Source: Balneolaceae bacterium (lineage in GTDB: Bacteria > Bacteroidota > Rhodothermia > Balneolales > Balneolaceae). From it: a stretch of DNA of 50,497 bases. Under the pieces are notes generated by a model. That model had not been told where the DNA came from, ran no database searches, and worked only from the letters and a program-made list of their open reading frames with translations. Position 1 is the first letter of the stretch. Each line of letters begins with the position of its first letter. Of this stretch, positions 18,798-21,685 are shown one piece after another. The translations under genes were made by a program, and so were the position numbers. The stretch lies in NCBI GenBank assembly GCA_007127745.1, contig SKYV01000186.1, positions 1 to 50,497 on the forward strand, read 5' to 3'.

Positions 18798-20276
18798 ATG
18801 AAAAACATCAACAGTTATCGGGTATTCAAACGAAATAATGCATCACCGGACTCAAGTGCTGATTATGTACTTTACTGGATGCAGATAAATCGGCGCTTAC
18901 ATTATAATTTTGCGCTGGAATATGCAGTATCATGGGCTAATAAATTAAATAAACCCCTGTTGATACTGGAAGCATTTTCATGTGATTATCCGTGGGCTAC
19001 TGAACGTTCACATTCATTCATGATGCAGGGAATGAAAGACCATCTTGAGTATGCTGAAGAACACCATTTAAACTACGTTTCTTTTGTAGAAGAAGAACCG
19101 GGACAATATGAAAAATTACTGAATAATCTTGCTGATAATGCCTCCATTCTCATCACAGACGAATTCCCGGTATTTATTATGCGTGAGCGAAATGAGCGCT
19201 ATCCGGAGCATTTCAATATTCCTTACATCACGATAGACAGCAACGGACTCATCCCGCTCGGCCTTACGGACAAAGACCCCTACAGCGCATATCTGTTTCG
19301 AAAAACAATGCAGAAACATTTTGTGGAGGCGTATACTAACCCGCCACAAAGAAATCCACTTGATGATCTTATCAACAAAAAACAGATTGAACACCCAGCC
19401 GAAATTTTTGAAAATCTGCCTGATGCAAAACATGCTTTAAAAAACATTCCGGAATTTATTTCCGGGTTAGATATTAATCACGAAGTGAAACCAATTAACT
19501 GGCAGGGCGGCAGATCGGCCGCGCTTGGCATGCTTGGCAATTTTATTGAAAACGGACTTCTGGAGTACGATGATAAACGAAATCACCCCGATGAAAATAA
19601 AACCAGCAGGTTGAGCCCATGGTTGCATTTCGGGAAAATATCTGAATATGAAATTGTGAAAACCGTGTTAAGTCACCAGCCCAAAGGGTGGGATCTCAAC
19701 AAAATCACCTACAACAATGGATCAACCGGTGGTTTTTTTAATGGAGATCCAAACATCGACAGTTTTCTTGATGAAGTGATTACCTGGCGTGAAGTTGGAT
19801 TTCATTATGCTCATCACCGCTCCGATTACCACAAATATGAAAGCTTGCCAGATTGGGCCAAAAAAACACTTGATAAACACAGAGGTGATCCCAGGAAATG
19901 GCACTATAGTTACGAAGAACTATCGCAATCAAAAACACATGACGAGCTTTGGAATGCAGCCCAAACACAATTGCGGGAAGAAGGTATCATCCATAATTAT
20001 CTGCGAATGCTTTGGGGCAAAAAAGTGATAGAATGGACAGACAAACCAGAAACAGCCCTGCAATACCTGATAGATTTAAACAATACCTATGCCATAGACG
20101 GCCGTGATCCAAACAGCTATTCCGGAATATTCTGGTGCTTCGGCCGATTTGACCGCGCCTGGCAAGAACGCCCCATATTTGGAAAAATACGCTACATGAC
20201 CAGCAAAAGCGCTCGAAACAAAATAAAACTAAAACAATATCTCCGAGAATTCCGTACTCATAATATCGATAAATAA
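18798..20276 (+). CDS. Deoxyribodipyrimidine photo-lyase, class II
   Basis: YVLYWMQINRRLHYNFALEYAVSWANKLNKPLLILEAF; C-terminal FLDEVITWREVGFHYAHHRSDYHKYESLPDWAKKTL, RMLWGKKVIEW, DGRDPNSYSGIFWCFGRFDRAW are class II photolyase-like. Confidence 0.93.
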   Translation: MKNINSYRVFKRNNASPDSSADYVLYWMQINRRLHYNFALEYAVSWANKLNKPLLILEAFSCDYPWATERSHSFMMQGMKDHLEYAEEHHLNYVSFVEEEPGQYEKLLNNLADNASILITDEFPVFIMRERNERYPEHFNIPYITIDSNGLIPLGLTDKDPYSAYLFRKTMQKHFVEAYTNPPQRNPLDDLINKKQIEHPAEIFENLPDAKHALKNIPEFISGLDINHEVKPINWQGGRSAALGMLGNFIENGLLEYDDKRNHPDENKTSRLSPWLHFGKISEYEIVKTVLSHQPKGWDLNKITYNNGSTGGFFNGDPNIDSFLDEVITWREVGFHYAHHRSDYHKYESLPDWAKKTLDKHRGDPRKWHYSYEELSQSKTHDELWNAAQTQLREEGIIHNYLRMLWGKKVIEWTDKPETALQYLIDLNNTYAIDGRDPNSYSGIFWCFGRFDRAWQERPIFGKIRYMTSKSARNKIKLKQYLREFRTHNIDK

Positions 20277-20349
20277 CCCGATAAAGTGAAAATATCGACA
20301 AAATAGCCGATAAGTTGAAAATATCGAATAAAAACACGATATTAAGGTA
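20263..20349. repeat. Three contiguous 29-bp tandem units, each with TATCG-N10-CGATA inverted repeat (candidate operator array)
   Basis: Units 20263-20291 ATATCGATAAATAACCCGATAAAGTGAAA, 20292-20320 ATATCGACAAAATAGCCGATAAGTTGAAA, 20321-20349 ATATCGAATAAAAACACGATATTAAGGTA; ATATCG at 20263/20292/20321 and CGATA at 20279/20308/20337. Confidence 0.85.
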
Positions 20350-20990
20350 TGGAAACAACAATAACAGGAGATATCGTGCAGTCCAGAGCAGTAGATCAAC
20401 CGGATATATGGTTAGGTCCACTCAAAAATCTCTTCAAAAACTTTGGAGACACACCTAAAGACTGGGAGATTTACCGGGGAGACAGTTTCCAACTAAAAGT
20501 AGAAGCTCGCGAGGCATTACGCATAGCAATACTTATCAAATCGATCATAAAAAAAATAGATAAAAAAAAACTCGACGTTCGCCTTGCCATTGGAATTGGA
20601 GATGATGCAAAATATGTCAACCGGGTAAGTGAAGCCACAGGAGAAGCATTTGTATATTCAGGCGAGTTATTAGAAGAGCTGAAAGAAAAAAAAATCCATT
20701 TAGGTGTAAAATCAAAATGGCCGGATTTCGACAAAGAACTAAATATGATGTTCAAACTGGCCCTTGTGATAATGAACTCCTGGACAAGCAATACCGCAGA
20801 AGTAGCCGCAATACTATTTAAAGTGCCGGGAATAACACAAGTAGAAATTTCAAAAAGACTTGGAATTGCACAGTCATCTGTGAACGACAGAATTAAAAGA
20901 GGATCGGTTTACGAAATCATTGAACTCGATCAATACTACAGAGACCGGATAGACACACTCACAAGTAATCAATACAGCTACTATCCATGA
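20349..20990 (+). CDS. SatD-like protein with C-terminal helix-turn-helix
   Basis: ITGDIVQSR, IYRGDSFQ, DVRLAIGIGDD, EATGEAFVYSGELLEEL pattern plus HTH ITQVEISKRLGIAQSSVNDRIKRG. Confidence 0.75.
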   Translation: METTITGDIVQSRAVDQPDIWLGPLKNLFKNFGDTPKDWEIYRGDSFQLKVEAREALRIAILIKSIIKKIDKKKLDVRLAIGIGDDAKYVNRVSEATGEAFVYSGELLEELKEKKIHLGVKSKWPDFDKELNMMFKLALVIMNSWTSNTAEVAAILFKVPGITQVEISKRLGIAQSSVNDRIKRGSVYEIIELDQYYRDRIDTLTSNQYSYYP

Positions 20991-21685
20991 TACTAATAAA
21001 GTTGATTTTAGCGCATCTGATCGGAGATTTTTTTCTGCAACCCAAAAAATGGATTACAGATAAAGAAAAACGCACCTGGACATCTCCATACCTTTATCTC
21101 CATTCCTTTCTGCACTTTGGGTTGATTCTTCTGATTTTGTGGGATATTTCATATTGGACTGTTGCTCTGTTTGTTGCAGGTTCACACTTGTTGATTGATG
21201 GTGCCAAAGTACAATTACAAACAGAACAAACCCGGAGCCTTTGGTTTGGGACAGATCAAATTTTGCATCTTTTTGTTTTGGTTGCAGTTTGGATGACGTT
21301 TTGGAGTGAAGTATCTGTTGCGATACCTGGCGAATCGTTCTGGATAATGATTACCGGAATTGTATTTTTGACATATCCTTCATCGTATATCATGATGAAT
21401 ATGATGAATCGATGGAATGAACAAATTAATACTGAAAATGAAGATTCTCTGGAAAGTGCGGGAATGTATATTGGAATGCTGGAGAGAATTTTTATCTATA
21501 CAGCCATTTTGAGTGGCTATTTGCAAATCATTGGTTTTCTTCTTGCAGCAAAATCGGTATTCAGATTTGGTGATTTAACCCGTGCTAAAAATCGAAAATT
21601 AACAGAATATATTTTGATCGGTACACTGATGAGTTTCTTGATTGCAATAACTACGGGATTGGCTACTGTCCGGCTATTAAGTTAA
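20987..21685 (+). CDS. DUF3307 domain-containing integral membrane protein
   Basis: ILAHLIGDFFLQPKKW...YLHSFLHFGLIL...GSHLLIDGAKV, multiple TM helices; overlaps the upstream gene by 4 bp. Confidence 0.85.
   Translation: MILIKLILAHLIGDFFLQPKKWITDKEKRTWTSPYLYLHSFLHFGLILLILWDISYWTVALFVAGSHLLIDGAKVQLQTEQTRSLWFGTDQILHLFVLVAVWMTFWSEVSVAIPGESFWIMITGIVFLTYPSSYIMMNMMNRWNEQINTENEDSLESAGMYIGMLERIFIYTAILSGYLQIIGFLLAAKSVFRFGDLTRAKNRKLTEYILIGTLMSFLIAITTGLATVRLLS

Follow-up and report, generated by a model that had tools for sequence, protein, structure and literature searches.

What reads the three evenly spaced palindromes that stand in front of a satD-like gene in a Balneolaceae bacterium, and to what effect? 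The window, that is, the whole stretch of 50,497 nucleotides that was analysed, carries an 87-bp array between a photolyase-like ORF and this gene. With good confidence, we read the array as a row of operators to which the SatD-like protein would bind, thereby repressing its own two-gene operon.

A phased array upstream of satD

The first-pass annotation had placed ATATCG at 20263, 20292 and 20321 and CGATA at 20279, 20308 and 20337 in a 29-bp phase, and these positions and their spacing are exact. The three palindromes, none assigned to a strand, are as follows.

20264..20283, no strand: putative operator unit 1, TATCG-N10-CGATA, spanning the stop codon of the upstream ORF (20274-20276), kept in orthologues
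20293..20312, no strand: putative operator unit 2, TATCG-N10-CGATA, exact sequence, kept in orthologues
20322..20341, no strand: putative operator unit 3, TATCG-N10-CGATA, its 3' end 7 bp before the satD ATG

The upstream ORF encodes 499 residues with weak Pfam matches (E about 2e-3), and unit 1 does run over its stop codon, as had been proposed. The companion claim, that the last unit ends on the satD start, is true of the 29-bp register, which reaches the A of the ATG, but not of the palindrome itself, which ends at 20341 with the ATG at 20349; this 7-bp gap is the same in nearly all genus orthologues.

The motif TATCG-N10-CGATA occurs three times in the window against an expectation of 0.05, a count reached in none of 100 dinucleotide shuffles. 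Tandem Repeats Finder gives positions 20262-20341 the top score of the window (97, with a period of 29, 2.8 copies and 78% match; the runner-up scores 52). Across the 3.07-Mb genome, single sites occur nine more times outside the array, while a pattern of 1.5 array units is found nowhere else. The idea of a wider regulon was set aside, the two single genomic sites inspected lying in or next to coding sequence and having no tandem partners.

In Bacteroidota, the promoter -7 box has the consensus TAnnTTTG. This box is present in 69 of 131 satD upstream regions, against 15.1 ± 3.1 after dinucleotide shuffling and 8 on the reverse strand; it takes preferred phases within the array unit and lies inside many arrays. 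In the window, the corresponding candidate falls short of the full consensus:

20311..20317, plus strand: TAAGTTG, candidate promoter -7 element in the spacer between units 2 and 3 (orthologue consensus TAA(T/A)TTGAAAA)

Because the -7 box sits within the arrays, occupied operators would cover the promoter, and it is on this ground that we infer repression by SatD; activation in its place is possible.

A satD homologue was found in 24 of 59 relatives searched; the named relatives closest to the source genome are Balneolaceae MAGs. In each of the 15 loci nearest to the gene of the window (L006-L020), two to four TATCG/CGATA units stand immediately upstream of satD in a tandem 28/29-bp register, so that the check for half-site conservation upstream of orthologous pairs came out in favour of the first reading. 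Among these loci, the end of the upstream gene and the spacers vary whereas half-sites and phase are kept, which favours a tandem operator over a slippage repeat, as had been argued from the window.

The search for targets in trans covered the genus genomes. In the 28 of them searched with the 1.5-unit pattern, exact matches are confined to genomes with a satD orthologue; they lie at satD, and three of these genomes have one more exact site elsewhere. In genus genomes lacking the orthologue, the exact pattern was not found and there were at most scattered one-mismatch matches. The second TATCG tandem arrays, at about 2484 in L187, 2554 in L188 and 2488 in L189, are each found towards the 3' end of a lipoprotein-like gene, and the three genes belong to one family. 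The arrays are possible trans targets or antisense promoters, and given their presence in three relatives, control by SatD may reach beyond its own operon.

Distant homologues were gathered by Pfam family search, region retrieval and an alignment-based scan of genome contigs, the family survey covering satD of Bacteroidota. Their upstream regions hold other palindromes in the same rhythm, with half-sites such as TATTCC, TATCAC and TATTAC in other clades. When palindrome length and period were scanned together at 167 loci, with the half-site left free, a sharp peak appeared at length 20 and period 28/29 (+5.4 for period 28 and +3.5 for period 29, other periods mostly staying below +1). The array threshold at 28/29 bp is reached by 140 of the 167 upstream regions, with 27 loci falling below it, but by none of the 167 control stretches of matched composition taken from these loci. 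The 131 well-fitted loci have two to six units each, and 325 of their 334 spacings are 28 or 29 bp. Palindromes of 20 bp every 28/29 bp, in two to six units, thus characterise the sequence in front of satD throughout the Bacteroidota.

SatD and its membrane partner

In streptococci, satD is known for its part in secretion and acid tolerance. The gene of the window and the parts of its product are as follows.

20349..20990, plus strand: satD-like gene, 213 aa, Pfam SatD (PF16264) E=1.4e-6, 28.6 bits
20349..20714, plus strand: SatD N-domain (residues 1-122), predicted nucleotidyl-cyclase/GGDEF/Cas10-palm fold with Asp8 and Asp45 kept
20787..20900, plus strand: SatD helix-turn-helix (HTH, residues 147-184), HipB-like by profile, covarying with the operator
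20871-20900, plus strand: SatD recognition helix (residues 175-184) in the AlphaFold model

The score of 28.6 bits is just under the PF16264 gathering cut-off of 29, several relatives score above it, and 32 of 34 alignment members match the family. The AlphaFold (AF2) model (pLDDT 94) shows a palm of beta-alpha-beta-beta-alpha-beta topology, then a helix and finally the HTH. Foldseek against the PDB returned diguanylate cyclases, cyclic UMP synthase, Cas10 subunits and class III adenylyl/guanylyl cyclases, as well as GTP cyclohydrolase III and Panoptes mCpol, with probabilities up to 1.00, a best E of 1.3e-3 and modest TM-scores. Furthermore, hhalign aligned the N-domain collinearly with class III cyclase domains from relatives (P=1.2e-4, probability 56%, versus P=0.44 for the DUF3307 control) and brought both metal aspartates into register, in GDI opposite TDF and in RGDSFQ opposite IGDSYMA. 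The alignment columns of Asp8 and Asp45 are invariant, and the predicted SatD has both the palm topology and the two metal-binding acidic residues. The N-domain therefore likely belongs, on the strength of these models, to the class III cyclase/GGDEF/palm superfamily; among the Pfam families listed, neither a cyclase nor a GGDEF match was found.

The second gene of the operon encodes an all-helical membrane protein.

20987..21685, plus strand: partner membrane protein, DUF3307 plus C-terminal domain, its start overlapping the satD stop by 4 bp (ATGA)
21434..21682, plus strand: C-terminal membrane domain of the partner, about 83-95 aa, GxLER..AAKSxFRF..TEYxLIGTLxS, common to stand-alone partners

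A partner lies directly downstream of satD at 169 of 174 loci, mostly with a 4-bp overlap, and three of the five loci that lack one are at contig ends. In one clade (downstream ORFs of L041-L065), the partner has only 105-115 aa and no DUF3307, and its sequence corresponds to the C-terminal part of the DUF3307 protein (GxLER, AAKS/ALKIGTR, TEYxLIGTL/NDYFLIGN). Since the stand-alone partners match this domain, the near-obligate partner is the membrane domain, with DUF3307 as an addition, and DUF3307 was rejected as the universal partner of SatD. The SatD-HTH/DUF3307 pairing that the first-pass annotation had named for comparison is thus conserved as regards a downstream partner, but the conserved part is the C-terminal membrane domain. 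No Pfam model was found for this domain, and a PDB structure search with the partner/DUF3307 model gave no usable match.

Some side observations concern the same genes. The DUF3307 part resembles the phage membrane protein family phrog_2470 (E=2.7e-13) and a protein of Acinetobacter phage SH-Ab 15599; relatives were searched for in viral contigs and SatD itself in phages, and neither was found there. Two satD genes (L060 and L071) have no membrane partner, a kinase-like ORF (MRIFLTGVGCVGKST...) downstream and no convincing array. In Segatella copri, a satD-DUF3307 pair lies on a plasmid (NZ_CP137558.1, L192) beside an IS1182 transposase.

The pairing leads to the alternative that survives best, namely that SatD and the membrane protein form a hipBA-like toxin-antitoxin pair in which SatD would serve as antitoxin and repress its own operon, the membrane protein would be toxic and the two together would act on the operators. 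This is a special case of SatD autorepression and compatible with it, and it fits the gene order with its 4-bp overlap and near-obligate pairing, the HipB-like HTH and hipBA-like 28-bp operator spacing, the patchy distribution of satD (66 of 297 genomes) and the plasmid copy beside a transposase. A satD of S. pyogenes reported as essential though accessory (PMC11323703) could suit an antitoxin as well. We nevertheless hold a toxin-antitoxin pair to be unlikely, as SatD exceeds the usual size of an antitoxin and includes a folded, predicted cyclase-like domain, chromosomal neighbourhoods are conserved within genera and HipA is absent.

Probable recognition of the array by SatD

The general case, SatD as the reader of its own array, is best approached through the half-sites, whose bases 4-6 vary among the 117 main-clade loci of the covariation set (selected for outer TAT/ATA). 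In partial Mantel tests, operator distance follows HTH distance with N-domain distance controlled (r=0.33, 0 of 999 permutations), and follows residues 176/177/180 more closely under the same control (r=0.57, 0 of 999), while with the HTH controlled it is nearly independent of N-domain distance (r=0.04). Residues 176/177/180 had been picked by eye before the test, and the scan over all residues is the unbiased version. This unselected scan, of residues 145-191 against bases 1-7 at 38 loci thinned to below 60% N-domain identity, ranks residue 177 with base 5 first (z=10) and residue 180 with base 4 third (z=7.3); the second rank, residue 189 with base 4, is perhaps due to relatedness. Serine or threonine at 177 goes mostly with G at base 5, alanine mostly with A and asparagine mostly with T; D, E, G or N at 180 goes with C at base 4, Q mostly with A and R with T. 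Residues 177 and 180 both lie inside the recognition helix of the model. This covariation of half-site and recognition helix is the strongest evidence, at the level of sequence, that SatD itself reads the array.

The same result bears on the idea that the array is the operator of another regulator, global or sigma-like, with SatD merely a regulated gene. Such a regulator could account for the additional array that three genomes have outside the satD locus, but we rate it as improbable, given that the half-sites vary by clade with the recognition helix of SatD and not with its other domain, and that exact arrays are missing from genus genomes that lack the orthologue. The inverted repeats abut the upstream stop codon, which might suggest a neutral minisatellite or, at the level of RNA, a terminator or a series of hairpins where the photolyase ORF ends. 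This reading is highly improbable and was rejected on the HTH covariation and the comparison of 140/167 loci with 0/167 controls, with the array geometry unchanged behind differing upstream genes in other families and the spacers diverging while half-sites and phase stay.

SatD is thus very probably the binder and autoregulator of the array, as judged from comparative data. The operator and autoregulation reading first put forward from the window gains support in that the closest orthologues all carry the array, exact arrays are missing from congeners that lack the gene, and in distant homologues the half-sites shift together with the recognition helix at an unchanged 28/29-bp period. In the mechanism that we propose, SatD dimers would bind each palindrome through the C-terminal HTH and fill neighbouring units cooperatively, and bound SatD would occlude the embedded promoter and the start region and so repress the operon that it shares with the membrane partner. 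The input that relieves or tightens repression likely comes from the palm domain with both metal aspartates, from the membrane partner or from both; this is the weakest step of the scheme.

More speculatively, SatD and its partner could be an unrecognised, widespread signalling or conflict module, in which a nucleotide-binding or nucleotide-making palm enzyme doubles as a transcription factor with a specificity code at 177/180 and gates a membrane effector domain that stands alone or is fused to DUF3307. We regard this as possible but doubtful. PADLOC defence models, searched for a system of the CBASS/Pycsar/Panoptes type, matched neither SatD nor the partner.

Comparison with known systems

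In the open-licence full-text literature, we found no description of an operator, fold or DNA binding for SatD, and nothing informative on SatD with an HTH in Bacteroidota, on DUF3307 or on the Pfam accessions. The first-pass remark that no operator of this form was known for this family is to be refined in that the architecture has a precedent in hipBA. The family (PF16264) is homologous to the window protein over residues 5-187, and its Bacteroidota members have an array and a partner of the same kind as the window locus. As concerns the palm, SatD resembles class III nucleotidyl cyclases, GGDEF proteins and Cas10/mCpol in predicted topology, in both metal-binding aspartates and in a collinear profile alignment; it differs from these in the fusion of its palm to an HTH and in having no Pfam cyclase/GGDEF match among the families listed.

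Among known systems, hipBA of E. coli comes closest to the array; there, HipB binds four TATCC-N8-GGATA operators (PMC3376134, PMC3920265), and the units of the O1-O2 oligonucleotide printed in PMC3376134 start 28 bp apart. In both systems, palindromes with TATC half-sites follow one another every 28 bp or so in front of a two-gene operon whose first gene encodes the DNA-binding protein. Furthermore, HipB is the best PDB match of the SatD HTH profile (E=0.008), with the segment TQ-ELA-K-GIKQ in common. While hipBA is autoregulated, autoregulation of the satD operon is proposed here from sequence comparison. The palindromes also differ, with 20 bp and TATCG-N10-CGATA for SatD versus 18 bp and TATCC-N8-GGATA for hipBA, SatD carries a predicted cyclase-like palm domain, and its partner is a membrane protein instead of the HipA kinase. 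By this analogy, the array would work like a hipBA operator and yet is not one. The SatD family thereby gains a predicted fold, a probable DNA-binding role, an operator of fixed geometry, part of a recognition code and, as near-obligate partner, a membrane domain. The hipBA layout of tandem operators spaced by 28 bp appears to be matched in a regulator of another type.
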